Part shown: one piece after another, positions 3,080 to 62,989 of the stretch
Position numbering within the stretch: the stretch's first letter is position 1
How the letters are laid out: each line of letters begins with the position of its first letter
From: Metabacillus halosaccharovorans
GTDB taxonomy: Bacteria; Bacillota; Bacilli; Bacillales; Bacillaceae
Direction: 5' to 3'
Assembly (NCBI RefSeq): GCF_002019635.1
Contig: NZ_KV917372.1
Coordinates: forward strand, 1 to 64,000
Length of the DNA: 64,000 bases
The notes under the pieces: generated by a model
Told to the model about the DNA's origin: nothing
Databases searched by the model: none
Seen by the model: only the letters and a program-made list of their open reading frames with translations
Translations under genes and position numbers: made by a program

Positions 3080-3241
3080 AAATGCTCCTCCTCTCTGATG
3101 CCTGAAAAAGGACTAGTTGACATCCTATTCCAATTTTAATCTATTATGATTATAAAATGAACAGGCAGTTTGATAAGAAGGTAATTTCTGATCAAGAAAC
3201 AAAATATGCATAAAGAATGAAAAGGGATGGAGAGTGAAACT

Positions 3242-3712
3242 ATGAGTGTGGATTGGAAAAAAGACCGTTTTAGAGCTATAGAACGTGGAGAAAATCCTTT
3301 GGTTATTGCAAAAATGAAAAGTGGTTATGCAGTAATTGGGGATACTCAGTTTTTGCCTGGATACTGTGTATTACTTGCATATCCGAAAGTTTACACTCTT
3401 AATGATTTAACAATTGAACAGAGAGGTGATTATTTAGTAGATATGAGTCTAATAGGTGATGCCATTCAATCTGTATGTAATCCAAGACGCTTAAATTATT
3501 CGATGTATGGAAATTCAGATGCGTTTTTGCATGCTCATATTTTTCCTCGCTATGAGTGGGAACCTGAGGATAAGAAACCTTATCCAGTTTGGCAGTATGG
3601 TGATTTATGGCATTGGGAAGAGCTGCAATACAGTGAGGAAAAACACGGTGAGTTAAGAAAGAAAATAAAAGAAAAATTAATTGAAATAATGAAGGAGAAA
3701 TATGGTGATTAA
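3242..3712 (+). CDS. HIT-like protein with altered histidine triad
   Basis: A 156-residue protein with a histidine-triad-type core: residues near FLHAHIFPRYEW line up with the HxHxH motif of nucleotide hydrolases or transferases, but the first His position is Phe. The middle, nucleophilic His is present. Activity on dinucleoside polyphosphates or similar nucleotides is possible but uncertain. I chose ATG 3242 because GGAGAG lies about seven bases upstream; the in-frame ATG at 3227 is crowded against the purine-rich site. The C-terminus is Lys/Glu rich. It is a single gene, followed by a hairpin at 3775-3809. A separate, decayed HIT gene is at 44407-44673. Confidence 0.65.
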   Translation: MSVDWKKDRFRAIERGENPLVIAKMKSGYAVIGDTQFLPGYCVLLAYPKVYTLNDLTIEQRGDYLVDMSLIGDAIQSVCNPRRLNYSMYGNSDAFLHAHIFPRYEWEPEDKKPYPVWQYGDLWHWEELQYSEEKHGELRKKIKEKLIEIMKEKYGD

Positions 3713-3774
3713 CCCTACCTTCTTTCCAACCGGTGCAAGAGTATTAAGACAAAAATAGCATTATGGCACCTTTT

Positions 3775-3809
3775 CTTCATGCAATAACACATCAAGTTAG
3801 TGCATGAAG
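3775..3809 (+). terminator. Hairpin after HIT-like gene
   Basis: CTTCATGCA (3775-3783) pairs with TGCATGAAG (3801-3809), followed after five bases by a short T run. Confidence 0.5.
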
Positions 3810-3864
3810 GTAAAGTTTTTAATATTTATAGAATATGTCTTTAAAAGAAAAATGGAGGAGTTAA

Positions 3865-4755
3865 ATGGGCGAAATGCAGGTTATCAATTTAGATAGAGTA
3901 TCCTTTCAATTAAAAGAAAGACATAACTTCGAATGGCTAACAAACATGGGAGAAGTATTCAGTGTTTTTGATGAGCAAGACTCAGGGAATATATGTTTTG
4001 GTATTGAAAAAGATGGAGTAAAAAAATTTGTGAAGTATGCAGGTGCAAAAACAAAAGAATATACCGGACAACCAGAAAAAGCGATCGAGATATTAAAGAA
4101 TTCAATTTCCCTATATGAAAATTTGCGACATAAACACTTGATAAATTTACTTGAGCATTTTGAAAAAGATACAGGATACGTGTTGGTTTTTGAGTGGTTT
4201 GAAGGTGAATGTCTTCACTCCCATTGGTCATTCCCGCCACCACATAAATACACTCACCCAGAGTCACCTTATTATCGGTTTAAAAAATTACCAATTGAAC
4301 AACGTTTAAAGTCATTTAAAAATATAGTAGAATTCCATCTAAATGTAGAAAGGAATGATTATGTAGCAGTTGATTTTTACGATGGGAGTATTTTATATGA
4401 CTTTAAAAATAATATCACGAAGATTTGTGACATTGATTTATATAAGAAAAAACCATTTATCAATCCAATGGGGCGACTGTGGGGATCATCTAGATTTATG
4501 TCCCCGGAAGAATTTGAGTTAGGTGCCAAAATTGACGAAAGAACAAACGTATTTAATATGGGAGCAATCGCATTTGGATTGTTAGGTGGAGAACTTGACC
4601 ACTCATTTTCTAAGTGGGATGCTGGACAGGAACTTTATCAAGTAGCAAATAAGGCAGTTAAATTAGATAGAGTAGAAAGATATTCAACAATAGAAGAATT
4701 CCTATCTGCTTGGGAAACAGCTTCAAAACAGGGGGTGAAACCTAGGACAGTATAG
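3865..4755 (+). CDS. Protein kinase-like protein with degenerate motifs
   Basis: A 296-residue cytosolic protein with a protein-kinase-like fold. Residues near FVKYAG may hold the ATP lysine, LRHKHLINLLEHFE resembles the N-lobe, and VAVDFYDGSILYD aligns with the catalytic loop: the Asp is kept but the usual Asn is Ser. The magnesium loop DFG is replaced by DIDLY. A later GSSRFMSPEE resembles the activation-segment GTxxYMAPE, which strongly supports kinase ancestry. Activity may be weak, or the protein may bind nucleotide only. ATG 3865 has GGAGG six bases upstream. No phosphatase, FHA or receptor partner is adjacent. Confidence 0.6.
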   Translation: MGEMQVINLDRVSFQLKERHNFEWLTNMGEVFSVFDEQDSGNICFGIEKDGVKKFVKYAGAKTKEYTGQPEKAIEILKNSISLYENLRHKHLINLLEHFEKDTGYVLVFEWFEGECLHSHWSFPPPHKYTHPESPYYRFKKLPIEQRLKSFKNIVEFHLNVERNDYVAVDFYDGSILYDFKNNITKICDIDLYKKKPFINPMGRLWGSSRFMSPEEFELGAKIDERTNVFNMGAIAFGLLGGELDHSFSKWDAGQELYQVANKAVKLDRVERYSTIEEFLSAWETASKQGVKPRTV

Positions 4756-20469: not shown

Positions 20470-21699
20470 TTATTTGTGGTTTCCAATAAATGGTGGGACA
20501 GTGAACCTGTCCCCCTGTCCAAATTTCATTATTTCAGATGCAGCGCGTTTGTAGCCGCCTTTTTCTTGTAGGAGGGTTCCAAATTCAGTGCAGTTTTGTT
20601 TGTATTTTTTATTGTTTAATAAGTTTAGTAATGATTGTTTCAGAGTTTCTGAGTTACATTCTTTTAAATGGATGCCGCATCCTAAACGTTCAACTTGTTG
20701 TGCAATCATTTCTTGTTCTTGTTGTTGAGGATAGAGGATTAAGGGGACTTTAAAATATAATCCTTCTTGGGCACTGTTCATTCCTCCATGTGTAACGAAT
20801 ATGTCTACTTTTTGCAGCAAGTCTATCTGATTCACAAAGCTATAAAGAATAAAATTTTCAGGTATAAAAGAAAAATCAGTTTCGTTCATTTTTTTTCCTA
20901 AAGATAGGATAAAGGTTGCTTCGATATCTTTAAAAGCTTGAAAGCAGTCCTCGTAAAATTTTTTGTTATCTCCAAATATACTTCCCAGAGAAATATAAAC
21001 GATTGGTTTTTCACTTTTAGGCAGTGCAACGATTTCTCCTTCTTTTCGATCCGATATAGAAGGGCCTACAAAACAATATGTATGATCAAACACATTTTTG
21101 TTTGGAGTAAATTCCGCAGCGGTAAAGACTATATTCAATTTTTCTTTACTACTCAAAGCATCTAAAAGAGGAGGTTTCTTCATATTGTATTTTTTGCATA
21201 AATGGTGTTGAATGCTTAATGCTTTAACAAGATGTTTTAAATCTCCTCGTGCAAATTGAAATACCAAATTGAGTAGCTCTTTTGGCATATTTAAGAATGA
21301 TTCATGAAATGGAAAGGTTGTTGTGGAACAAATGGTAGGAATGTTTTTAATTTGACCTACATATTTACCCCAAGTTGCTAAAGAATCATGAATAATATAG
21401 TCAGGTTTTTCTCTGTCGACTTCGCTTAATAAAAAGTCTAACATTTTCTCAGTGCTCTCGATACAAACCCTAAAAACAATGGGAAAGTATTTCAGCTGTT
21501 CTTCTGTATAATTTGTATCCTCTAAACGATTGATGCTATAAGGCATATATGTAGCACCAGTTTCTTCAATCTTTTCCTTTAAATCAGGAAAAGAGTAATA
21601 TAATACTTCTTCTCCTTGATAAATTAACTCTTCCACTAAAGCGAGAGTAGGGTTTGTATGACCATGAGCTGGAATATTAAAAAAGATAGCTTTACCCAA
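20470..21699 (-). CDS. Macrolide-type UDP-glycosyltransferase (GT1)
   Basis: A 409-residue GT-B glycosyltransferase of the MGT/YjiC type. The N-terminal domain starts KAIFFNIPAHGHTNPTLALV with the catalytic His of the GT1 family (H13 in AHGH). The C-terminal domain carries PIVYISLGSIFG and the donor-binding signature FVTHGGMNSAQEGLYFKVPL followed by PQQQEQ. Relatives glycosylate macrolides, flavonoids and other lipophilic alcohols; a self-protection role is possible. TTG 21699 has AAAGGAG upstream. The last 13 residues or so (GDRFTVPPFI...) come from a dispersed repeat also found at the end of the AraC gene at 33113. Confidence 0.88.
   Translation of the reverse strand: MGKAIFFNIPAHGHTNPTLALVEELIYQGEEVLYYSFPDLKEKIEETGATYMPYSINRLEDTNYTEEQLKYFPIVFRVCIESTEKMLDFLLSEVDREKPDYIIHDSLATWGKYVGQIKNIPTICSTTTFPFHESFLNMPKELLNLVFQFARGDLKHLVKALSIQHHLCKKYNMKKPPLLDALSSKEKLNIVFTAAEFTPNKNVFDHTYCFVGPSISDRKEGEIVALPKSEKPIVYISLGSIFGDNKKFYEDCFQAFKDIEATFILSLGKKMNETDFSFIPENFILYSFVNQIDLLQKVDIFVTHGGMNSAQEGLYFKVPLILYPQQQEQEMIAQQVERLGCGIHLKECNSETLKQSLLNLLNNKKYKQNCTEFGTLLQEKGGYKRAASEIMKFGQGDRFTVPPFIGNHK
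20483..20520 (-). repeat. Dispersed hairpin repeat, copy 1 (in CDS end)
   Basis: The minus strand reads GGGACAG-GTTCA-CTGTCCC, a perfect seven-pair hairpin, followed by ACCATTTATTGG. It is translated as the C-terminal tail of the glycosyltransferase. Copies lie at 21876-21914 and 33119-33158, all on the minus strand at gene ends. Confidence 0.8.
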
Positions 21700-23404: not shown

Positions 23405-24304
23405 TTATTTTTTCTCAAATGCTGAAAGTACGACTTTTGTTGCTTCTGCAATGAGCTCATCATCATAAGTAGCATCTTTTTCATTTCGGTTTGATAGAAT
23501 GGCTAAAACAATTGGATCTTCATTTGGTGGCCAAATGATCGCAATATCATTTCTAGTGCCATACGATGCTGCTCCGGTTTTATCTGCTACTTCCCAACCT
23601 TTTGGTACTCCGGCACGAATTAATGCATCACCGGTTGTATTTCGCTTCATCCAGTCAATTAAAAGCTCACGTTTTTCTGGTGGAAGAGCATCTTCAAGTG
23701 CAAAAGTCTGAAGGCTTGCAGCAAGGGCTTTTGCTGTACTTGTATCATGGGTTTCACCAGGGGCTACATCGTTTAATTCTGGTTCCATTCGTTCAGGATT
23801 TGTCATATCATCACCAATTTGTCTTAGGGCATGTTTAAATTCTTCAGGTCCACCTATTTGTTCAAAAATGAGATTTGCAGCGGTATTGTCACTGTAGCGT
23901 AATGATGCATCAGAAAGATCCCGAAGTGTCATACCGGTATCGACATGTTGTTCTGTAATTGGACTATATGTAACAAGGTCATCACGGGAATAGGTGATCG
24001 TTTCGTTCAGATCTTCAATAGATTTCTGCTGCAAAAGGACTCCTACCGCCAAAGCTTTACTAGTTGATGCATATGCAAATCGTTCATCAGGTCGATAGGA
24101 AATGGCCACATCTGTTCCGGTGTCCAGAGCGTAAACTCCCAGCTTAGCATCATATTTTTCTTCAAGTTTAGAAAATTCATCCTGACTAGCAGGTTCATTT
24201 TTTTGTTGTACAGATTGAGTTGATTGTGCTGGATCGTTTGAACATCCCATAAGAACTAGAAAGGAAAGTAATAACACAGATGCCAGTTTGTTTTTTGTTT
24301 TCAT
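23405..24304 (-). CDS. bla: Class A beta-lactamase, lipoprotein
   Basis: A 299-residue serine beta-lactamase hydrolysing penicillins and perhaps cephalosporins. All class A motifs are present: S80-T-S-K83 (S70xxK), S138-D-N140 (SDN130), E174-P-E-L-N178 (the omega-loop E166), and K242-T-G (KTG234). The leader ends in LMGC, a lipobox, so the enzyme is probably membrane-anchored, with possible release, as in Bacillus licheniformis BlaP. Its promoter (24372-24400) is overlaid by one BlaI-type dyad, with a second at the transcription start. It lies downstream of blaR1 but has its own promoter after the blaR1 terminator. Confidence 0.95.
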   Translation of the reverse strand: MKTKNKLASVLLLSFLVLMGCSNDPAQSTQSVQQKNEPASQDEFSKLEEKYDAKLGVYALDTGTDVAISYRPDERFAYASTSKALAVGVLLQQKSIEDLNETITYSRDDLVTYSPITEQHVDTGMTLRDLSDASLRYSDNTAANLIFEQIGGPEEFKHALRQIGDDMTNPERMEPELNDVAPGETHDTSTAKALAASLQTFALEDALPPEKRELLIDWMKRNTTGDALIRAGVPKGWEVADKTGAASYGTRNDIAIIWPPNEDPIVLAILSNRNEKDATYDDELIAEATKVVLSAFEKK

Positions 24305-24351
24305 TAAATCTTACCTCTTTCTTTGTTAATTTTGTTTTATCCTAATAAAAC

Positions 24352-24363
24352 TTACATATGTAA
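24352..24363 (-). promoter_or_regulatory. BlaI operator A (bla)
   Basis: A perfect palindrome TTACATATGTAA, 23 bases from operator B (centre to centre). It covers the likely start of bla transcription, and its sequence equals the classical BlaI/MecI dyad core. Confidence 0.8.
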
Positions 24364-24371
24364 TACTTAAA

Positions 24372-24400
24372 ATATTACACGTGTAAGTTTTTGGAGTCAA
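24372..24400 (-). promoter_or_regulatory. bla promoter with BlaI operator B
   Basis: On the minus strand: -35 TTGACT (24395-24400), a 17-base spacer, and -10 TAATAT (24372-24377). The perfect palindrome TTACACGTGTAA (24375-24386) overlaps the -10, so bound BlaI would exclude RNA polymerase. Confidence 0.85.
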
Positions 24401-24433
24401 CACTTTTTTGTGAGTGTTTTACATCAAATAAAT

Positions 24434-24462
24434 AAAAAAACCCACAGATGTTAATCTGTGGG
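24434..24462 (-). terminator. blaR1 terminator
   Basis: CCCACAGAT (24441-24449) pairs with ATCTGTGGG (24454-24462); on the minus strand seven T follow. It separates blaIR1 from the bla promoter. Confidence 0.85.
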
Positions 24463-24485
24463 GAGGATGGATTCTTTCAAATTCA

Positions 24486-26282
24486 CTATGATTTAATAAT
24501 ACCTTCCTTCTTCAATATGGAAAGGGCGATTTCCGATGCAGTACTTCCTCCAGCATCTTTTTCACCTTGTATGTGTACAGCAAAAAAGAACGTATTATCT
24601 GCGGTCTCTACATATCCAATAAACCAACCATCAATATTTTTACCGTTTACTTCTGCAGTTCCCGTTTTTCCGGATAATCGATGTTCATTTGTTTTTTCTA
24701 GTAGTATTGCGTCTTTGACAGTTTGAATAGTAGATGGATCAAAAGATAAATCATTATGATAAAACGTTCTCAACATACCAATCTGTTCAACAGGTGAGAT
24801 TTTTAGTGAGCCATCCATCCAATAATCAGTCATGTTATTTGACATATCTTTGTTTCCGTAATTCAATTGTTCAAAGTAAGTTAGCAACTTCTTTTTACCG
24901 AGATGCTTGTCAAGATGTTGAAAATACCATGTGGTGGAGTTTTTCATAGCCGTAAATAAATCCTGGTCTTGATTCCATTTATCATATTTGTGTAAAGTTC
25001 CATCCCAGGCTAATTCGGAATTTTCTTTTGAAATAATCCCATTTTCCAACGCAAACAAAGCACTGAAAATTTTATAAGTAGAATTGGGAGCGAACCTCGT
25101 AGTACTTTCATCCTTATTGTATATTGTGTACTGATCCATTTTGCTGTCGTATAAGACGGCACTTCCAGTAAGATTCTCAAAATAAGGAGAATAATCTTTG
25201 TTAACAATATTTTGATGCGAAAATGGATGTGTGTCTTTGTTGAAAGCAAGCACAGATATTGAAGGAATACTACCTAGTATGAACACAAGAACAGCTGTAA
25301 AGATTAGTCCGCTTTTTACTTTTTGCCGTTTTGATTCTACTTGGAAATTTACGATCGTCACTATGCGCCGTTTTACTTGTTTATACGAGCTGCTAATTTC
25401 TGATGCAGCAACTAAAGGTGAAACTTGTTTTGATTGAGAAGCAAATTTTAATATAACCTCACCATATTTAAGCTGAGAATCTTCATCAAGCTTTTTTAAA
25501 ACAGCATAATCGCAAGTAATCTCCATCTCAGTTTGCATTTCTTTTAAGAAATACCAAACGATAGGATTAAACCAATAAACAATTCTAGATAGACCCATTA
25601 CATAATTGATGAGAATATCTTTACGTTTACAATGAACCAATTCGTGAAGTAACACACTTTTCATATCGTCATCAGTAAGCATTGAAAAATTGATTGGTAA
25701 GACAATATATCGTCTGAAAAACCCAAATGTAATGGGGGACTTTACTAAAGGTGAATAGGCTAATATGACCTTTTTATGAAAGTCTATATCCTTTTTGCAT
25801 GCTGTAAGTAGGTTTGTTAAATCTCGGTTTACATTAACTTTTAAACTCTTTTTTATCTTATGGATTCTTAGATTACTAGAAAAAGTAGCCAGAAGGATAA
25901 CCATCATTCCTATTATCCATATGCAAAAAAAGACAGAATCCAGCATGTTTAAGGGTGATTGTTCAATAGAATTGGAAAAGTTTTGTTGCCAATTTCCATT
26001 CTGAAGAAACGTTTCAGTCATGGTTGCATCAGAATTGATGTCGGTTTGGCTTGGATGATGAACTCCAAAATTTATGAACTGTCGAAAAAATGAGTTGATT
26101 TCAAGGAATTGCAAGGGGATAAAAGGTGCAAACAAAACCAAAAGAGAAATTAGACTGATGTGATATTGGGTATTGACAGTGATTTGCTTATTTAACCCCT
26201 TTTTTATAACGAAAATGATACAAAAGATGACAGATACAATCATGTTACTAATGAAGAAGAGAGTGAAGAAAGAATTGCCCAT
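24486..26282 (-). CDS. blaR1: BlaR1 beta-lactam sensor/signal transducer
   Basis: A 598-residue membrane receptor. The N-terminal part has four predicted helices and a zinc metalloprotease domain with HELVHCKRKD near residue 210 and a downstream EMEITCDYAV segment. The C-terminal third is an extracytoplasmic penicillin-binding sensor (class D-like): STYK near residue 397 supplies the acylated Ser, and SGKTGTAEVNG is near 537. Acylation by a beta-lactam should trigger the protease domain and inactivate BlaI. Its ATG overlaps the end region of blaI with one base between, so the two are translated together. The length matches BlaR1/MecR1 proteins (585-600). Confidence 0.93.
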   Translation of the reverse strand: MGNSFFTLFFISNMIVSVIFCIIFVIKKGLNKQITVNTQYHISLISLLVLFAPFIPLQFLEINSFFRQFINFGVHHPSQTDINSDATMTETFLQNGNWQQNFSNSIEQSPLNMLDSVFFCIWIIGMMVILLATFSSNLRIHKIKKSLKVNVNRDLTNLLTACKKDIDFHKKVILAYSPLVKSPITFGFFRRYIVLPINFSMLTDDDMKSVLLHELVHCKRKDILINYVMGLSRIVYWFNPIVWYFLKEMQTEMEITCDYAVLKKLDEDSQLKYGEVILKFASQSKQVSPLVAASEISSSYKQVKRRIVTIVNFQVESKRQKVKSGLIFTAVLVFILGSIPSISVLAFNKDTHPFSHQNIVNKDYSPYFENLTGSAVLYDSKMDQYTIYNKDESTTRFAPNSTYKIFSALFALENGIISKENSELAWDGTLHKYDKWNQDQDLFTAMKNSTTWYFQHLDKHLGKKKLLTYFEQLNYGNKDMSNNMTDYWMDGSLKISPVEQIGMLRTFYHNDLSFDPSTIQTVKDAILLEKTNEHRLSGKTGTAEVNGKNIDGWFIGYVETADNTFFFAVHIQGEKDAGGSTASEIALSILKKEGIIKS

Positions 26283-26283
26283 A

Positions 26284-26670
26284 TTATTCTTTCCTTTTGT
26301 TCTTACGATCTTCTAAAATTTGATACAACTCATTAATTTCATGCTCTGACAGCTTATCTTTTTCCAAGAAGTTTAAGACCATGGAATTGAGAGTACCATT
26401 ATAAAACCGATTTAAAAAACTATGACTCTCTTCTTCTATATAATCACTTTCCTTAACATTTGCTGTATAAACAAAGATACGGCCTTCTTTATGGTTTTTG
26501 AGGGCGCCTTTTTTAATCAATCGCAATAGCATCGTTTGAATTGTTTTAGGGCTCCAATCACTCGTTTTGGATAATTTTTCGATCACCTCATTTGTATTGA
26601 TCGAAGGGTGTTTCCATACGATTTTCATTACTTCTAATTCAGCATCTGAAATTTGCGGGATATTTTTCAT
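26284..26670 (-). CDS. blaI: BlaI/MecI-family repressor
   Basis: A 128-residue winged-helix repressor. The N-terminal ISDAELEVMKIVWKHPSINT and the recognition region TSDWSPKTIQTMLLRLIKKG (residues 37-57) are typical of BlaI/MecI, followed by a dimerisation helix region ending in Lys-rich KNKRKE. It should bind TTACA-NN-TGTAA dyads as a dimer and be removed after BlaR1 signalling. I chose ATG 26670, five bases after GGTGG, over GTG 26679, which is part of that ribosome site. It is autoregulated by operator C. Confidence 0.93.
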   Translation of the reverse strand: MKNIPQISDAELEVMKIVWKHPSINTNEVIEKLSKTSDWSPKTIQTMLLRLIKKGALKNHKEGRIFVYTANVKESDYIEEESHSFLNRFYNGTLNSMVLNFLEKDKLSEHEINELYQILEDRKNKRKE

Positions 26671-26687
26671 CGTAACCACCTTTAAAC

Positions 26688-26735
26688 TTACATTTGTAGT
26701 ATTTTTATTATATTCCGCTTTTAGGTTGAAGTCAA
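26688..26735 (-). promoter_or_regulatory. blaI-blaR1 promoter with operator C
   Basis: Minus strand: -35 TTGACT (26730-26735), 17-base spacer, -10 TATAAT (26707-26712). The dyad TTACATTTGTAG (26688-26699, read on the plus strand) covers the expected start site, giving autoregulation. Confidence 0.82.
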
Positions 26736-26752
26736 TGAAACGAGAAAAAGGA

Positions 26753-26780
26753 TTGACACAAAAACTTACATGTGTAATAT
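26753..26780 (+). promoter_or_regulatory. pbp promoter with BlaI operator D
   Basis: -35 TTGACA (26753-26758), 16-base spacer, -10 TAATAT (26775-26780). TTACATGTGTAA (26766-26777) overlaps the -10 exactly as in the bla promoter; the spacer ACAAAAACTTACA is nearly identical to that of bla. This promoter is divergent from the blaI promoter, with 17 bases between the two -35 elements. Confidence 0.83.
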
Positions 26781-26838
26781 TTACCTTATTAGTTCAGTGA
26801 CCTCTTAGAAATAGGTGAAATGGAAAGGAGATCATAGT

Positions 26839-28902
26839 GTGACAGCAAGAATTGAACAACACAAGTTACAAAAAACAAGACTTATGCGGGTGAATATCTT
26901 TTTTATTATAGTGTTTTTATTTTTTGTCGCTCTTATTTTAAGACTTGGATTTGTCCAAATTGTTTACGGAGAAGAATATAAAAAAGAAGTAAGGAAAACT
27001 GTTGATACTGTCGTTAGTATTCCGGTTCCACGTGGGAAAATCTTTGACCGGAACGAAAAGGTCATTGTTGATAATGTTGCAGTTAAAGCCATCACATATA
27101 CGAGGATGAAAGGGACAACTCCACAAGAAATGCTTGGAACGGCAAAGGTGCTTTCGAACATGATTGATATGGATGAAGAAGAAATCAAACAGAGGGAACT
27201 CAAGGATTATTGGATGGTCACCAGACCTGATAAGGCAAGAGATAAGATAAAAAAAGAATTACTAGATGAAAGCTTAACTGATAAAGATCTATATGATCGA
27301 CAAATCGAACGAATCACCTCTATTGATTTAAAAGAAATAAACAAGGAGGAGCTAAAAATTGCAAAAATATTTACAAAAATGATTAGCGGCTATACCCTCA
27401 CTCCACAAATCATTAAACGCTATGTGACGGAAGAGGAGTTTGCCGTTATAGCAGAACATTTAGCGGATTTGCCAAATGTAGACATTTTAACGGATTGGGA
27501 CCGTCACTATCCGCACAAAAATATTTTTCGTTCTGTATTAGGAAATGTGACATCATCAAAAGAAGGATTGCCAAGCTCTAAGTTAGATTATTTTTTATCC
27601 AGAGGGTATAGCAGAAATGATCGAGTTGGAAAAAGTCAGCTGGAATTATATTATGAAGACGTTTTGCAAGGTCAGAAAGCAAAGGTAAAACATGTAACAG
27701 ATCAGAGTGGTAATCTTTTAGAAACAGTAGACGTCTCTGATGGACAAAGTGGGAAAGATCTCGTTCTATCGATTGATTTTGATTTGCAGAAGGCAGTAGA
27801 ACAAGTGATTCAAGGTGAACTTAGCAGAGCAAATGGGAGAAACAGTTTTCTAAATCGTGCATTTGTTGTGATGATGAACCCTAATACAGGGGAAGTGCTT
27901 TCAATGGCTGGGAAACAACTTGTTCGAGAAAACGGGAAAGATGTGTTTCGAGATTATGCATTAGGAACAATTAATTCCCAATATGAAATGGGCTCAGTCA
28001 TAAAAGGGGCAACGGTATTAGCAGGGCTAGAAGCTGGTGTTATTTCTCCTGAAACAGTGTTTAGTGATGAAAAATTAAATTTAAAAGGTACACCGCTGAA
28101 AGGGTCACATTCTACCTCATTAGGTACGAATGGAATTGAAGGAGCATTAAAAAAGTCCTCGAACGTATTTATGTTTAAAACAGCGATTCGAATGATGGGG
28201 AAAGAATATCAATCAGGGATGGCACTTCCTAAAAAGCCTGAGGCTGTTCAACAGTTCCGGAATTCTTTAAGTCAGTTCGGTTTAGGTGTGAAAACTGAAA
28301 TCGATCTTCTGAATGAATCGGACGGGTTAATCGGTAAAGAAGCTTACACGAAGCCTGGTTTATTCCTTGACCTTTCAATCGGCCAGTATGATAACTATAC
28401 AACAATGCAATTGGCACAATATATTTCGACGATTGCAAATGGCGGTTACAGATTGAAACCACAATTAGTGAAAGCCATTCATACATTCTCAAATTCCGAT
28501 GACATAGGTGCAGTGGTTCAAGCAGTACAACCAGAGGTTTTAAATAAAATAACAATGGATGATAGGTATTTACAACAAGTGCAAGAAGGGTTTCGACAAG
28601 TTTACCAAAGTCCTGGTGGCACAGCTTATAAATATTTTGGAGGAGATCGTCGGTACAAGGAATTTCAAGCAGCAGGAAAAACAGGGACAGCACAGTCTTT
28701 TTATCATGATCAGAATACAAAAAAAACTTACTCAACTTACAACTTAACGTTAGTCGGTTATGCTCCGTACAACAATCCCGAAGTTGCATTCTCGATTGCT
28801 GTTCCTAATTTGGATACAGATACTGACCCAGTTAATAAATATATTGGACAAAAAATACTAAAAGCATATTTTGATTTAAAGAAGCAACACAATGAAGAAT
28901 AG
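26839..28902 (+). CDS. Class B PBP, PbpA/PbpH-like transpeptidase
   Basis: A 687-residue monofunctional DD-transpeptidase. It has one N-terminal membrane helix (residues 18-40), a PBP dimer domain with PRGKIFDRNEKVIVDN, a region typical of Bacillus PbpA/PbpH (YTLTPQIIKRYVTEEEF and SVLGNVTSSKEGLPSSKLDY), and the catalytic domain with GSVIKG near 385 (SxxK), KSSNVF near 440 (SxN) and GKTGTAQ near 613. It should cross-link peptidoglycan during elongation. I chose GTG 26839, eight bases after AAAGGAG. The BlaI-type operator over its promoter implies beta-lactam induction, and divergence from blaI supports this. Confidence 0.88.
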   Translation: MTARIEQHKLQKTRLMRVNIFFIIVFLFFVALILRLGFVQIVYGEEYKKEVRKTVDTVVSIPVPRGKIFDRNEKVIVDNVAVKAITYTRMKGTTPQEMLGTAKVLSNMIDMDEEEIKQRELKDYWMVTRPDKARDKIKKELLDESLTDKDLYDRQIERITSIDLKEINKEELKIAKIFTKMISGYTLTPQIIKRYVTEEEFAVIAEHLADLPNVDILTDWDRHYPHKNIFRSVLGNVTSSKEGLPSSKLDYFLSRGYSRNDRVGKSQLELYYEDVLQGQKAKVKHVTDQSGNLLETVDVSDGQSGKDLVLSIDFDLQKAVEQVIQGELSRANGRNSFLNRAFVVMMNPNTGEVLSMAGKQLVRENGKDVFRDYALGTINSQYEMGSVIKGATVLAGLEAGVISPETVFSDEKLNLKGTPLKGSHSTSLGTNGIEGALKKSSNVFMFKTAIRMMGKEYQSGMALPKKPEAVQQFRNSLSQFGLGVKTEIDLLNESDGLIGKEAYTKPGLFLDLSIGQYDNYTTMQLAQYISTIANGGYRLKPQLVKAIHTFSNSDDIGAVVQAVQPEVLNKITMDDRYLQQVQEGFRQVYQSPGGTAYKYFGGDRRYKEFQAAGKTGTAQSFYHDQNTKKTYSTYNLTLVGYAPYNNPEVAFSIAVPNLDTDTDPVNKYIGQKILKAYFDLKKQHNEE

Positions 28903-28930
28903 TAGCAAATCAATCTCTCTTATATCAATC

Positions 28931-28959
28931 TTTACAACTAAAACTTACATTTGTAATAT
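28931..28959 (+). promoter_or_regulatory. Second pbp promoter with BlaI operator E
   Basis: -35 TTTACA (28931-28936), 17-base spacer, -10 TAATAT (28954-28959), with TTACATTTGTAA (28945-28956) over the -10. It gives the second PBP its own BlaI-controlled start inside the two-gene unit. Confidence 0.8.
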
Positions 28960-28998
28960 TTATTACCCATCAAAAGGTAGATGCGAGGAGGAAATCTA

Positions 28999-31005
28999 AT
29001 GAAAAAGAATCATCTGCTAGATCCATTGTTTATACTGATAATAGTCTGCTTTTTAGTTATATCTGGCTGTTCAAAAGAAAATAAACAGAATGAGACGTTT
29101 GATCAATTTTCGAATCTGTTATCAAATCAAACATATGATCTGCTATATGATTTATTATCTAATGAATCAAAAAGAACAATCACAAAGGAAGAGTTTGTAA
29201 CACGATATACAAATATTCACTCTGGTATTGAAGCGGTTGATATAAACATAAAAAGAGTAGACGAAGAAAGTGACGAAAATGTGATACCTTTCTCTATCGA
29301 AATGGACACGGTAGCAGGAAAGCTGTCATCATCACCTTATCAACTACATCTAGTAAAGGAAGAAAATGAATGGAAAATTCAGTGGGACGAAAGCTTAATT
29401 TTTCCTGCCATGAAAAAAGGTGATAGAGTCAAGGTGAATACAATGAAAGCAACAAGGGGACGTATACTTGCACGAAATGGATATCCACTTGCTAAAGATG
29501 GTGAAATCAAAACGGTAGGTATTAATCCTGAGGTGTTTGATAAAAACAATCGCGAAGAAAAAATACAAGAACTGGCAGCGTTGTTAGACATAAGTGAAGA
29601 AACGATTATGAAAAAATTAGATCGGAATACAAATCCAATTTATTTTGTTCCTATTGTAGATATGTTGCCGGATGATGAAAAACTAAAAAAATTAGAAGAT
29701 CGAGGTGCTGAGGGTATTTTTGTAAATGATAAACTTTCAAGGGTGTATATCAATCATAAAGCTTTCGGACGACTTCTTGGATATGTCGGAAATATTACGG
29801 CTGAAGAAATGGAAGAAAACAAAGAAAAAGGCTATAGTACGACATCACTAATCGGAAAGGCTGGTCTTGAGCAAGTATATGAAGAAACATTAAGAGGAAT
29901 TGATGGAGTAGAGATTTATATTGTAAGAGATAATGAAAAAATAGAAACCCTTGTAAAAAAAGAACCACAACATGGTCAGGATATTAAATTAACGATTGAC
30001 TCGAATTTACAAAGTATCATTTATGATGAAATGAATGGTGAGAAAGGTTCAGCAGCAGCCGTTCATCCAAAAACTGGAGAAGTACTTGCTTTAGTAAGTT
30101 CTCCCTCTTATAACTCAAATCGTTATACAACCTATGTGACAAAAGAAGAGCAACAAAGACGTGAAAAAAGTAAATTTACTGATGAAGTGAATCGATTTAG
30201 TAAACTGTATTCACCAGGATCTGTATTTAAATTAGTGACTGCAACGGCTGGACTTGAAAAAGGTATATTAGATCCTGAAAAGCAAATTTCCATCAAGGGC
30301 CGTTCATGGCAAAAAGATCGTTCATGGGGGAACTACAGGATAACAAGGGTGAATAACCAATCCTCTGTTAATTTAATAGATGCGGTAAAATACTCAGATA
30401 ATATTTATTTTGCGATGACTGCACTTGATTTAGGCAAAGAGGAATTTATAGCTGGTGCAAAGAAATTTGGAATTGGTGAGCCATTAGAGATTGGTTATCC
30501 ATTGGGAGATAGTCAAATATCAAATGGAGAACGCCTAGACCGTGACATCCTGCTTGCTGATTCAGGATACGGACAAGGAGAAGTGATGGTTACATCATTA
30601 AATATGGCTCTTGCTTATAGTGCATTTTCAAATGAGGGAAATATCATGGCACCATCATTAATTCAATCAGATAATCAGAAAATAACAGTTTGGAAAGAAG
30701 AGGCTATCCCATCTGCACATCTATCTACTTTGCAACGTGCATTTACTGCTGTTATTAATGAAGAGGGTGGTACAGCTAGTGCTGCAAAAATTTCGGGAGT
30801 TTCATTAGCGGGAAAAACAGGAACAGCGGAAATAAAAGCATCCCAAGTTGATGAAAATGGAACGGAAAATGGCTGGTTTATTGCAACTGATTTAGATTCT
30901 GGCAGAATCTCTCTTGCGGTCGTACTTGAAGATGTAAAAGAGAAGGGTGGTAGTCATGCTACCTTACCGATTATAAAAAACACATTATTATCTTATTTAC
31001 AATGA
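28999..31005 (+). CDS. MecA/PbpC-like low-affinity class B PBP
   Basis: A 668-residue lipoprotein-type PBP: the leader MKKNHLLDPLFILIIVCFLV ends in ISGC. Residues 30-140 resemble the MecA N-terminal NTF2-like domain (FDQFSNLLSNQTYDLLYDLL, then EEFVTRYTNIHSGIEAVDI), followed by the dimer domain (KATRGRILARNGYPLAKDG) and the transpeptidase: SVFK near 407, SDN near 465, GKTGTAE near 608. PBP2a of Staphylococcus aureus and PbpC of B. subtilis have this same layout and length. It would keep cross-linking while other PBPs are acylated. ATG 28999 follows GAGGAGG. Low beta-lactam affinity is an inference from the family. Confidence 0.9.
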   Translation: MKKNHLLDPLFILIIVCFLVISGCSKENKQNETFDQFSNLLSNQTYDLLYDLLSNESKRTITKEEFVTRYTNIHSGIEAVDINIKRVDEESDENVIPFSIEMDTVAGKLSSSPYQLHLVKEENEWKIQWDESLIFPAMKKGDRVKVNTMKATRGRILARNGYPLAKDGEIKTVGINPEVFDKNNREEKIQELAALLDISEETIMKKLDRNTNPIYFVPIVDMLPDDEKLKKLEDRGAEGIFVNDKLSRVYINHKAFGRLLGYVGNITAEEMEENKEKGYSTTSLIGKAGLEQVYEETLRGIDGVEIYIVRDNEKIETLVKKEPQHGQDIKLTIDSNLQSIIYDEMNGEKGSAAAVHPKTGEVLALVSSPSYNSNRYTTYVTKEEQQRREKSKFTDEVNRFSKLYSPGSVFKLVTATAGLEKGILDPEKQISIKGRSWQKDRSWGNYRITRVNNQSSVNLIDAVKYSDNIYFAMTALDLGKEEFIAGAKKFGIGEPLEIGYPLGDSQISNGERLDRDILLADSGYGQGEVMVTSLNMALAYSAFSNEGNIMAPSLIQSDNQKITVWKEEAIPSAHLSTLQRAFTAVINEEGGTASAAKISGVSLAGKTGTAEIKASQVDENGTENGWFIATDLDSGRISLAVVLEDVKEKGGSHATLPIIKNTLLSYLQ

Positions 31006-31033
31006 ATCAATTGCACCTCTAAGATCATAATTT

Positions 31034-31207
31034 AAGGCTGTTTTTGCATACTTTGTTGTTTTTTGATGTATTTTTAAGGTGAACATTAGTACGTTCCAAA
31101 GCGTTCCATTCCCTGGCTTTCCTCTCTCAGGAGCAGAGTGTCTTCCACTCCAATTCACTATAAATTAAAATAATATTCATAAGCAACAATCTTTGCGAAA
31201 ACAGCCT
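31034..31207. mobile_element. MITE-like element with inverted ends
   Basis: The left arm begins AAGGCTGTTTTTGCATA (31034) and the right arm ends TTTGCGAAAACAGCCT (31207); they are inverted copies over about 27 bases with roughly six differences. The 174-base unit has no ORF. Its interior includes GAACGCTTTGGAACGT-like and GGAGTGGAAGACACTC-like segments seen in common Bacillus intergenic repeats. It fills most of the gap 31006-31453 after the MecA-like gene. Confidence 0.6.
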
Positions 31208-31453
31208 AATGATATAAGGTCGATCAAATTTCTCCTGCTAGAGAAATAGAAAAAAATAAAAAGAGATTTACATTGTTGAACAACAGTAAGGTGCAGATGT
31301 GTTTTTGAATCCTTTTATTTGAGAAATCGATACCCTTAATGAAAGAAAATGAATTTATTTATCGTTTTCTCCTACGTTCGTACTAGTCAGAATTTCCTTT
31401 ACTCCATTATAATAGTATTAGCAATAGTGTTTGTAATCAATGGAGTTGAATTT

Positions 31454-47240: not shown

Positions 47241-48029
47241 ATGAATAATCTGACTAATAAAGAAATACCAAATGAAGCGATTCAAGCATTAAAAATCGTA
47301 GAGGAATTGCTTGGAAGTTCGATAATCGGGGTATATCTATATGGTTCATCAGTAAAAGGTGGTTTACGCATAAACAGTGATGTAGATGTCTTAGTGGTCG
47401 TGAGTCATAACTTATCTGAAGACAGTCGAAAAGAACTATCTGATAGATTGATGCTTATATCTGGAAAGATAGGGAATACAGATTCTGTGCGATCACTTGA
47501 GGTTACAGTTATAAACCATAGCGATGTCGTACCCTGGAAATATCCTCCCAAAAAAGAATTCATCTATGGTGAATGGCTTAGGAGTGATTTTGAAAAAGGG
47601 AAAATCCAAGAACCTACATATGACCCAGATCTAGCTATTATCTTAGCAAAAGCACAAAAGTATAGTGTTTCACTATTTGGTTCTGAAGTTTCTGATTTAC
47701 TTGACCCCATTCCAATAACAGATGTAAGAAGGGCAATTAGGGAGTCTATGACAGAATTAATTGAAGGGCTTAATGGAGACGAACGTAATGTGATTTTAAC
47801 TCTGGCTCGAATGTGGCAGACAGTAGCAGTAGATGAAATCTCTCCAAAAGATGTGGCAGCAGAATGGGCTATACCTCGGTTACCTAATGAACATGCGGAT
47901 TTACTCGATTTAGCTAGAAAAGCGTATCGAGGAGAGTATGTTGATAAGTGGGAAGGACTGGATTCCGAGGTGGTTTCACTTGTTAATTATATGAAAAACT
48001 CAATAGAGTCGTATTTTCGTAACAACTGA
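47241..48029 (+). CDS. ANT(9)-like spectinomycin adenylyltransferase
   Basis: A 262-residue nucleotidyltransferase of the AadA/ANT(9) type. GVYLYGSSVKGGLRINSDVD carries the GSS-x-D-x-D active site (the two Asp of SDVDVLVV), and the C-terminal DUF4111-like domain includes NVILTLARMWQTVAVDEISPKDVAAEWA (residues 178-205). Transfer of AMP to position 9 of spectinomycin is the expected activity; streptomycin use is less likely from the ANT(9)-like length. Chromosomal homologues occur in Bacillus. AGAGGAG lies nine bases before ATG. There is no mobile element beside it. Confidence 0.85.
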   Translation: MNNLTNKEIPNEAIQALKIVEELLGSSIIGVYLYGSSVKGGLRINSDVDVLVVVSHNLSEDSRKELSDRLMLISGKIGNTDSVRSLEVTVINHSDVVPWKYPPKKEFIYGEWLRSDFEKGKIQEPTYDPDLAIILAKAQKYSVSLFGSEVSDLLDPIPITDVRRAIRESMTELIEGLNGDERNVILTLARMWQTVAVDEISPKDVAAEWAIPRLPNEHADLLDLARKAYRGEYVDKWEGLDSEVVSLVNYMKNSIESYFRNN

Positions 48030-61420: not shown

Positions 61421-62989
61421 ATGAGAAAAATATGGATGGCTTTTCCTAGTTTATTGATTGTCTTTTTCCTTGCTGCATGTGGTGGAGACAATGCAAATAG
61501 AACTAATGGTGAGGAGGAGGAAGCTTCTTCAGCAGAGCAGCTGGAAATTTACACAACGGTATACCCACTTCAGTTTTTTGCAGAACAGATTGCAGGCGAA
61601 GAAGCGTTGGTCGAATCGATTTTGCCCCCTGGTTCGGACTCCCATACATTTGAGCCGACTACAAAAGAAATGATAAACATTGCAGAAGCAGATGCATTTA
61701 TTTTTAATGGTGCGGGATTAGAGACTTATGCTGAAAAAATCGCAAATGCGGTTGAATCAGAAGATGTGAAAATCATCGAAGCTGCCGTAGGAATTGAGTT
61801 GAATGAAAGTGATCACGACCATGACCACGATCACGACCATCACCACGATCATGGAGATCAGGACCCGCACGTGTGGCTTGATCCAATCCGTTCTATTAAA
61901 CTAGCCGAAAATGTAAAAGATATGTTAGTAGAGTTAAGGCCTGAAAAAGAAGAATTTTTTAATGAGAATTTTGAGTCACTAAAAGAGGAGCTTGAGGGTC
62001 TTCATGAAGAATTCTCCACTCAATTGAAAGAGACGCCAGGCAATCACTTCATTGTCTCTCATGCAGCTTATGGTTATTGGGAGGAAGCATACGATGTACA
62101 TCAAATTGCTGTCTCTGGCTTAAGTCCAACAGATGAGCCTTCACAAAAAGAGTTGGAGAATATTATTGAAACAGCCGATCAATATGGGTTACACTACGTC
62201 TTTTTCGAACAGAACATAACAACAAAAGTAGCGGAAGTCGTCAGAGAAGAAATTGGCGCAGAAACCCTTCGACTACATAATCTTTCAGTTTTAACAGAAG
62301 ATGATATCGAGAAGGAAGAGGACTATTTCACATTAATGCGTCAAAACCTTGCTCAATTGACGACTGCATTGGCAGATTCGGCTGCTGTAGAAGTTGATGA
62401 ACACGATCATGATCATAGTCACGAGCACAACCATGAATTAGACGAAGAGGCACAAAAAATCTATGATGGATATTTCGAAGATGATCAAATTAAAGATCGT
62501 GACTTATCAGACTGGGACGGTGACTGGCAATCCGTCTACCCTTATTTAATCGATGGAACATTAGACGAAGTATTCGCTCATAAAGCAGAAGAGGGAGATA
62601 TGACAGCTGAGGAATACAAAGAATACTATACAATCGGTTATAAAACAGCCGTGGATCGCATTATCATTGAGGGAAATACGTTTACCTTCTTTGAAGATGG
62701 CGAACAGTCGTCAGGAAGCTACGTCTATGACGGCTACGAAGTGCTGACCTATGAAAAAGGAAACCGCGGAGTGCGATACATTTTCAAACTTTCTGAAGAA
62801 CAGGAAGGAAAAATGCCAGCCTATATCCAGTTCAGTGATCACAGCATCGAACCAACCGATTCACATCACTATCACTTATATTGGGGAGATGACCGGGAAG
62901 CACTACTTGAAGAAGTAACTAACTGGCCGACCTATTACTTCTCTGATCTAAGCGGTGAGGAAATCGCTGAAGAAATGATGATGCATTGA
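61421..62989 (+). CDS. adcA: AdcA/ZnuA zinc-binding lipoprotein with ZinT domain
   Basis: A 522-residue zinc receptor. The leader MRKIWMAFPSLLIVFFLAAC has lipobox LAAC. The first part (residues 40-320) is a ZnuA-like cluster 9 binding protein with ligands H76 (GSDSHTFEPT), a His/Asp-rich loop (DHDHDHDHDHHHDHGDQDPH), H in PHVWLDPIRS, H in FIVSHAAYGYW and the later E/D. A second His-rich linker (EHDHDHSHEHNHE) joins a C-terminal ZinT/YodA domain (DWDGDWQSVYPYLIDGTLDE, then DSHHYHLYWGDD). This is the AdcA layout of streptococci. It should deliver zinc to an ABC importer, whose genes are not in this window. The Zur box indicates induction in zinc shortage. Confidence 0.95.
   Translation: MRKIWMAFPSLLIVFFLAACGGDNANRTNGEEEEASSAEQLEIYTTVYPLQFFAEQIAGEEALVESILPPGSDSHTFEPTTKEMINIAEADAFIFNGAGLETYAEKIANAVESEDVKIIEAAVGIELNESDHDHDHDHDHHHDHGDQDPHVWLDPIRSIKLAENVKDMLVELRPEKEEFFNENFESLKEELEGLHEEFSTQLKETPGNHFIVSHAAYGYWEEAYDVHQIAVSGLSPTDEPSQKELENIIETADQYGLHYVFFEQNITTKVAEVVREEIGAETLRLHNLSVLTEDDIEKEEDYFTLMRQNLAQLTTALADSAAVEVDEHDHDHSHEHNHELDEEAQKIYDGYFEDDQIKDRDLSDWDGDWQSVYPYLIDGTLDEVFAHKAEEGDMTAEEYKEYYTIGYKTAVDRIIIEGNTFTFFEDGEQSSGSYVYDGYEVLTYEKGNRGVRYIFKLSEEQEGKMPAYIQFSDHSIEPTDSHHYHLYWGDDREALLEEVTNWPTYYFSDLSGEEIAEEMMMH

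Follow-up and report, generated by a model that had tools for sequence, protein, structure and literature searches.

A BlaR1/BlaI locus of Metabacillus halosaccharovorans with operators at a beta-lactamase gene and at two class B penicillin-binding protein genes

The locus at positions 23,405 to 31,005 of contig NZ_KV917372.1 of Metabacillus halosaccharovorans raises the question of whether one BlaR1/BlaI sensor/repressor pair may control a beta-lactamase gene together with two genes of class B penicillin-binding proteins (PBPs). The stretch analyzed, hereafter the window, comprises the first 64 kb of contig 2 of this genome (5,399,367 bases, four contigs). The bla, blaR1 and blaI genes were found on the minus strand and the genes of a PbpA-type and a PbpC/MecA-type PBP on the plus strand, divergent from them, with a Na+/H+ antiporter-family gene on one side of the set and a GGDEF gene on the other. 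An initial annotation of this DNA had described the same layout, and all five reading frames proved to be open and to fit their families by Pfam and NCBIfam. The products were identified as: (i) a class A beta-lactamase (bla, 23405..24304) with a lipobox-like LMGC and the motifs STSK, SDN, EPELN and KTG, which scored 320.5 with the class A equivalog NF033103 (cut-off 200); (ii) BlaR1 (24486..26282), with an M56 metallopeptidase (HELVH) and a penicillin-sensing transpeptidase-like domain (STYK, KTG), at 676 bits with the blaR1_generic model NF000326 (cut-off 400); (iii) the BlaI repressor of 128 amino acids (26284..26670; likely start ATG at 26670), at 135.5 with Penicillinase_R (cut-off 22.6); (iv) an elongation-type (PbpA/PbpH) PBP of 687 amino acids (26839..28902; likely start GTG at 26839; SVIK, SSN, KTG); and (v) a PbpC/MecA-type PBP of 668 amino acids (28999..31005; likely start ATG at 28999) with a MecA_N domain, a lipobox-like ISGC and the motifs SVFK, SDN and KTG. 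The active-site motifs were retained in the beta-lactamase, BlaR1 and both PBPs, and regulators of both families stand next to bla, as expected of a BlaR1/BlaI-controlled beta-lactamase locus. BlaI carries Asn100-Phe101 near the position at which staphylococcal BlaI and MecI are cleaved (Asn101-Phe102; PMC3305447, PMC5341023). A terminator-like hairpin 3′ of blaR1 (24441..24462, minus strand) splits blaI-blaR1 from the bla unit; such sites were no more frequent in the window than in shuffled sequence (4 found versus 5.3 expected), and the argument for the hairpin is its placement.

Whether the five genes share one regulator was approached through their operators. A scan with the pattern TTACANNTGTAA identified dyads at 24352, 24375, 26688, 26766 and 28945; the window held four exact matches, all at the locus, with the dyad at 26688 at one mismatch, and 11 matches when one mismatch was allowed (5.3 expected). 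These BlaI-type dyads were distributed over four promoters, in agreement with the initial annotation, which had placed them at bla, at blaI and at both PBP genes. Three of the dyads were found to cover a −10 element and two to lie just behind one. At bla (promoter TTGACT-17-TAATAT, 24400-24372, minus strand) the first dyad (24349..24366) is just behind the −10 element and the second (24372..24389) covers it and part of the spacer; at blaI (TTGACT-17-TATAAT, 26735-26707, minus strand) the dyad (26685..26702) lies just behind the −10 element; and the −10 elements of the pbpA-type gene (TTGACA-16-TAATAT, 26753-26780) and the pbpC-type gene (TTTACA-17-TAATAT, 28931-28959) are covered by dyads at 26763..26780 and 28942..28959, respectively. 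The promoter scan by itself did not exceed chance (40 found versus 34.7 expected, standard deviation 6.0), and its weight lies in the coincidence with the dyads.

The genome-wide counts ruled out the dyads as chance occurrences. The pattern AACTTACANNTGTARTA, built from the locus sites, had five perfect matches in the 5,399,367 bases, none at one mismatch and 41 at two; its reversed control gave 92 matches at up to two mismatches, so that the two-mismatch matches are noise and the perfect matches alone are informative. A consensus taken from print (PMC5341023, Fig. 2 legend), which is independent of the locus sites, was found with at most one mismatch at 21 distinct places (26 rows over two strands; 13 rows for the reversed control). 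Five of these places fall within the 7.6-kb locus and 16 elsewhere, and the five include the only two exact sites of the genome, which are the first dyad at bla and the dyad at the pbpC-type gene; the Poisson probability of at least five places within 7.6 kb is about 5e-11. By this consensus bla has one exact and one single-mismatch site and blaI one single-mismatch site. As a separate observation, a perfect AACTTACANNTGTARTA site was also present in a congener that had no BlaR1 match (G008:C11:64818).

On this basis it is likely that the locus forms a single beta-lactam-responsive regulon which combines hydrolysis of the drug with two induced class B transpeptidases, one for division and one for elongation. 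In such a regulon BlaI dimers on the five dyads would hold down the promoters of bla, of blaI-blaR1, of the PbpA-type and of the PbpC/MecA-type PBP gene, and a beta-lactam would acylate the outer sensor domain of BlaR1, leading to inactivation of BlaI and expression of all units. The lipoprotein-type beta-lactamase would then destroy the drug, and two class B transpeptidases would be made in addition to the housekeeping ones; judged by family, the PbpC-type enzyme would back up the division transpeptidase in a drug-tolerant form, and the PbpA-type would be an elongation (rod) transpeptidase. PbpA and PbpH serve rod elongation. A rod cell works with two wall-building machines, and the circuit would supply an extra catalytic subunit for each. 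Acylation of BlaR1, inactivation of BlaI and release of bla are described in that order for Bacillus licheniformis and Staphylococcus aureus (PMC3305447). For the division enzyme, PBP 3 of Bacillus subtilis (pbpC) is reported as a MecA-like protein with a MecA_N domain that can provide PBP 2B activity for division and that confers tolerance to oxacillin and cephalexin, its active-site serine being needed in the case of oxacillin (PMC5656894). The genes, operators and promoters, the operator-free homologues, the conservation of the operators and the recurrence of the arrangement provide well-supported observations. BlaI binding, induction, low drug affinity of the PBPs (for which PbpC has good family precedent), replacement of blocked enzymes and the division of labor are what we infer from them.

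A different use of induced PBPs was also considered, namely that they do not replace blocked transpeptidases but repair or remodel the wall when it is under stress, or serve as a sink for the drug. A response to a fragment of peptidoglycan is reported for the circuit of B. licheniformis (PMC3305447), and the signal may accordingly be wall damage as well as the drug. We regard this explanation as rather unlikely, as both window PBPs have kept their catalytic motifs and as the tolerance provided by B. subtilis PBP 3 depends on its active-site serine (PMC5656894).

To place the locus among its relatives, BlaR1 matches were collected with the window protein as query (E ≤ 1e-90; the best three candidates at most per genome in the order sample), a setting that leaves distant BlaR1 proteins outside the survey. 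Matches were found in 21 of 80 genomes of the family, its own included, and in 37 of 397 genomes sampled from the order, a set that partly overlaps the first. Regions of up to 20 kb were read for 55 BlaR1 loci, window included, and genes within these regions are referred to as linked. Class A bla alone was present at 34 loci, class D alone at one and class B alone at one; PbpC- and PbpA-type genes without bla at nine and PbpC alone at three; class A bla with PbpC at three, one of them (L104) without operator, and with PbpA at two, one of them (L110) with pbpA in pieces. The full set of class A bla and both PBP types was seen only in the window. One further locus (L090, in G351) had a class D (BPU-like) beta-lactamase (3170-3985; class by NCBIfam) beside PbpA-type and PbpC-type PBPs, blaI and blaR1, and is therefore the same five-part set with another class of beta-lactamase. 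PBP-bearing BlaR1 loci were found to recur in Bacillales, at 18 of the 55 loci and with both types at 11, L104 left out. In L104 (G158) about 2.7 kb separate the PbpC-type gene from blaR1; this gene, the sole PbpC-type match of its genome, lacks a dyad and was counted as unlinked, and by distance alone it would raise the PBP-bearing loci to 19 of 55. Contig ends cut or border L074, L089, L090, L093, L107, L110, L111 and L113, and absences are unsure there.

The operators were found to follow linkage for the PbpC-type genes. The core TACANNTGTA was present within 220 bp upstream in all 20 linked PbpC-type rows (survey loci and plasmids; 19 distinct records, the KF18 plasmid and G411 being a single one), compared with none of 19 unlinked PbpC-type and none of 37 unlinked PbpA-type rows, one of the latter (L192, reading frame at 3) starting at a contig end with no upstream DNA. 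Even with L104 taken in, the surveyed BlaR1 regions held 17 PbpC-type genes of which 16 had a dyad upstream, and the wiring proposed in the initial annotation thus has backing in relatives too. Among the linked PbpA-type rows, seven of 14 had a dyad of their own (the window genome G000, G016, G006, G003, G311, G215 and Niallia). In three aligned congeners (G016, G006 and G003), which carry blaR1-blaI with both PBPs (80-82% identical to those of the window), the blaI-pbpA region was found to retain both dyads, including the core of the one at the pbpA-type gene, as well as the TTGACA of pbpA; the pbpC promoter of these three had a full dyad further upstream and a near-dyad (TACG for TACA) at the position of the window's. 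The proposal of one BlaR1/BlaI pair acting through five operators at four promoters is therefore strengthened by operators kept at the PBP promoters of these congeners. No class A bla match was detected at E ≤ 1e-30 in five congeners with blaI-blaR1 and both PBP types (G003, G006, G009, G016 and G018), which suggests that the place of the PBPs in the circuit is independent of bla.

These data bear on a simpler explanation, that only bla and blaI-blaR1 are BlaI targets and that the PBP genes are neighbors with chance or inert dyads. Two congeners (G010 and G014) without PBPs at the same site are in line with it. However, it leaves the dyads over the −10 elements of both PBP promoters, their retention in three congeners without a class A bla match, the 20 of 20 versus 0 of 19 distribution at linked and unlinked PbpC rows, and the density of published-consensus sites (five in 7.6 kb versus 16 in the rest of the genome) as coincidences, and we consider it very improbable.

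The identity of the two PBPs was examined next to that of their homologues. For the PbpA-type protein the closest solved relatives were chains named PBP3 and PBP2B (kin of S. aureus PBP3 and pneumococcal PBP2B), and a best match of the PBP2b type together with PBP_dimer and transpeptidase domains places it with PbpA/PbpH; its score with the NCBIfam model strep_PBP2B, which is streptococcal, was 500.6, below the cut-off of 975. The PbpC-type protein had as closest solved relatives a PBP3, a low-affinity PBP5, PBP2a and PBP4. Its layout of MecA_N, PBP_dimer and transpeptidase domains was common to all 20 alignment rows (19 linked and one housekeeping), and the view that it is MecA/PbpC-like, with the length and layout of PBP2a, was borne out. 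A true mec gene was rejected, as the protein falls below the PBP2a family cut-off (NF000237, 445 bits versus 750) and scored 399 bits with the MecA model (cut-off 1490), 344 with MecB (1450), 367 with MecC (1500) and 383 with MecD (1450). The possibility that the locus PBPs are the only genes of their types in the genome was likewise rejected: operator-free second copies were found for the PbpA type (C2:1129008-1131038, 45% identical to the locus copy) and for the PbpC type (C2:1196266-1198248, 38.5% identical). At least one match of each type was present in all 24 genomes tested, and at least one further PbpA-type copy was found in each of the 12 survey genomes whose linked PbpA-type gene was included in the tree.

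Trees were used to follow how the linked genes arose; they were quick, without bootstrap, with several long rows of unsure position and with the broken linked pbpA of G284 left out. In the PbpC-type tree the linked label required two changes versus 13.4 in shuffles, and 17 of the 20 linked rows fell into two clades; a one-clade tree was rejected (p 1.8e-75). The PbpA-type tree required eight changes versus 12.5 in shuffles; starred branches force at least five of the eight, and six were required after removal of four long rows. A single origin of the linked PbpA-type genes was rejected (p 6.5e-75 with the long rows and 0.001 after their removal). Judged from these trees, PbpA-type genes have joined BlaR1 loci several times over. 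The linked copy of G215 is sister to a copy of its own genome (99*), that of the Priestia megaterium plasmid pairs with the contig 1 copy of G411 as its sister (100*), that of G415 stands among its own paralogues (99*), and those of G001, G009 and G018 lie inside the ordinary PbpA clade of the genus (99*) and are 74-75% identical to the other PbpA of the window genome. An unlinked PbpA copy of G015, on contig C16, was placed beside the linked copies and may be part of the BlaR1 locus of that genome across a contig break; no PbpC end was found on C16 at the putative break. A residue marker was seen for the PbpC type, in which Phe precedes Lys in the SxxK motif (S-x-F-K) in 19 of 20 linked versus three of 19 unlinked rows; at this position the solved low-affinity PBP5 reads STFK and chain 7bn9, a PBP3, reads STIK, and in G401 and G411 both PbpC-type copies carry Phe. 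As the linked PbpC rows are related to one another, which explains part of the pattern, the marker is a hint only.

The history of the PbpA-type genes gives weight to another explanation, in which both PBPs are under BlaI and the PbpC/MecA-type enzyme alone is drug-tolerant, the PbpA-type acting by dosage, with extra sensitive copies that titrate the drug and replace acylated molecules. A drug-tolerant member of the PbpC family is reported from B. subtilis (PMC5656894), and the linked PbpC rows share S-x-F-K. Repeated recruitment from ordinary PbpA genes, in some cases recent (G009, G018 and G001), fits a role by dosage. Linked and unlinked PbpA rows had the three motifs of the same kinds, save for two cut-short rows (one linked, one unlinked) that lack KTG. 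By contrast, the PbpA-type lineage of the window is deep and common to G351 and G181 (98*), which leaves room for specialized properties. A dosage role is a serious rival, for which we see somewhat less than an even chance.

Several observations weigh against the regulon proposed above. First, the two congeners closest to the window genome, G010 and G014 (DNA about 93% identical where the stretch is shared; BlaR1 89% identical), keep the antiporter, bla, blaR1, blaI and GGDEF genes in order at the syntenic site without the PBPs, and the PBP pair is hence an optional module. The window sequence from 26737 to about 31372 (compared with G010) or 31429 (G014) is replaced there by an unrelated 0.75 or 1.1 kb, respectively, 87% alike between the two; a search of this empty site for PBP remnants found none (best translated match E 0.28). 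Second, seven of the 14 linked PbpA-type rows have no dyad inside the 220-bp limit. Five of these genes (G009, G018, G351, G415 and G181) stand 3′ of pbpC on the same strand and would have to be expressed by read-through from it, and the P. megaterium gene, which stands 3′ of pbpC-bla, would have to be expressed by read-through from there; in G001 a core lies about 175 bases before the frame and exceeds the limit because the distance was measured from a later start codon. Third, the SxxK motif of the linked PbpA-type rows shows no marker comparable with S-x-F-K. Fourth, a second PbpC-type match (E ≤ 1e-60) was found in 11 of the 16 genomes with a linked PbpC-type gene and in none of the other five (G003, G006, G016, G349 and G415), so that the linked gene is not always a spare. 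Fifth, class D-like frames were detected in G001, G009, G011, G015 and G018 (elsewhere in the genome in G009 and G018), and the lack of a class A bla match does not equal the lack of a beta-lactamase in these genomes. Sixth, some linked genes are damaged: the PbpA-type match of G003 ends at residue 591, before KTG, blaR1 of G001 is in two frames, and at the second locus of G284 pbpA is in two pieces.

Known systems were then compared with the window. The bla divergon of B. licheniformis (blaP / blaI-blaR1, OP1-OP3; PMC3305447) is alike in its regulator pair, its class A bla and its operators at both promoters; it differs in having no PBP genes and in a bla that is divergent from blaI, whereas the bla of the window is downstream of blaR1 on the same strand. 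Four genomes of genus g2 in the window's own family (G030, G032, G037 and G048) also had bla-only loci, with BlaI 79-80% and BlaR1 56-58% identical to the window proteins. In the mecB complex of Macrococcus (blaZm-mecB-mecR1m-mecIm), as in the window, genes for a beta-lactamase and for a MecA-type PBP accompany a single sensor/repressor pair; the complex has one PBP, with no PbpA-type partner named in the available text, and its PBP is far from the window protein in sequence, as the MecB score given above indicates (PMC5341023). Staphylococcal mecA, mecR1 and mecI likewise place a 668-residue PBP with MecA_N beside a BlaR1/BlaI-type pair, with the difference that the window protein fails the PBP2a cut-off. 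To our knowledge the staphylococcal mec complex has no elongation-type PBP. The PBP types of the window correspond to pbpC (PBP 3) and pbpA/pbpH of B. subtilis, which are ordinary chromosomal genes there, while in the window genome homologues without operators are present besides the locus copies. Of the combined bla and PBP circuit put forward in the initial annotation, the wiring therefore stands as stated, but the idea is not confined to this locus, given Macrococcus (PMC5341023) and the 18 Bacillales loci. A circuit with bla and one MecA-type PBP is already known from the former, and the elongation-type PBP is the variant. No description of a PbpA-type PBP under BlaI, or of PBP-bearing BlaR1 loci in Bacillaceae, was found among the open-licence papers listed, judged by titles and the openings of abstracts, which agrees within that scope with the initial annotation, whose author knew of no standard account of a Bacillus bla operon with a PbpA-type PBP under BlaI. 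The best reading of the locus is a rod-cell version of the combined bla/mec circuit.

Related sets were also found on plasmids. The P. megaterium plasmid NZ_CP018877.1 carries pbpC-bla-pbpA facing blaI and blaR1, which are all five genes in another order; NZ_CP069398.1 has the same spacing of two PBP matches and a BlaR1 match, as judged from the matches; on the KF18 plasmid, pbpC-bla and blaI-blaR1 were present and no PbpA-type match was found; and a Niallia taxi megaplasmid has pbpC-blaI-blaR1-pbpA. On the Enterococcus avium plasmid NZ_CP034168.1 (L048), blaI-blaR1 accompany a PBP of the PBP4(5) family, and both blaI and the PBP gene have a core upstream. The plasmid BlaR1 loci of Peribacillus and Metabacillus had no PBP. 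Because some copies are on plasmids (Priestia, Niallia and Enterococcus), annotation that seeks bla or mec alone would miss part of a likely inducible repertoire. Taken more widely, Bacillales may have repeatedly assembled a rod-cell counterpart of mec, in which BlaR1/BlaI would induce a dedicated MecA/PbpC-type enzyme for division and a repeatedly recruited PbpA-type enzyme for elongation, with or without a beta-lactamase, and the MecA type alone would suffice for cocci, whose growth is mainly septal; we hold the chances of this generalization to be evenly balanced. The findings suggest that beta-lactam-inducible target duplication recurs across Bacillales and is not peculiar to staphylococci, with bla as a part that can be exchanged. 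They also open to direct test the simple idea that two drug-tolerant or reinforced transpeptidases are needed in a rod and one in a coccus.

Additional observations were made around these systems. Insertion sequence-type transposase genes lie near the locus of NZ_CP034168.1, a mec-like set on an enterococcal plasmid, and two E. raffinosus records had BlaR1 and PBP matches side by side. On the Metabacillus dongyingensis plasmid NZ_OK052578.1 (L043), blaI (84% identical to that of the window) and blaR1 (63%) adjoin an annotated subclass B1 metallo-beta-lactamase gene. A MecA-type PBP of Clostridium sardiniense (NZ_JAFBDA010000012.1, L034:1312-3321) was 53-54% identical to the window PbpC-type protein, closer than any compared row outside the window's genus; no TACANNTGTA cores were found in the 11 kb read there, and the likeness possibly reflects transfer between distant groups. 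In G015 a class D-like frame (L066, G015:C129, match 1501-2352; one TAA reported) resembles the BlaR1 sensor domain at 32% identity and has a perfect BlaI-type operator just upstream (core at 2364) on a contig other than that of the BlaR1 locus; it is possibly a distant regulon member or the remnant of one. In G006 an AraC-family gene lies directly beyond pbpC, and the same gene stands beyond the GGDEF gene in the window. Directly 3′ of the window PbpC-type gene, at 31028-31212, is a repeat resembling a miniature inverted-repeat transposable element, with imperfect terminal inverted repeats AGGCTGTTTT...AAAACAGCCT; it had at least 29 matches in the window genome and was present in at least 20 of 21 genomes of the genus, its own included. 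Elsewhere in the window, 61421-62989 encodes a fusion of a ZnuA-type zinc-binding protein with a ZinT domain, 47241-48029 an AadA_C-type aminoglycoside nucleotidyltransferase-like protein and 20470-21699 a macrolide-type glycosyltransferase, the last two bringing the resistance-like genes of the window, with bla, to three.

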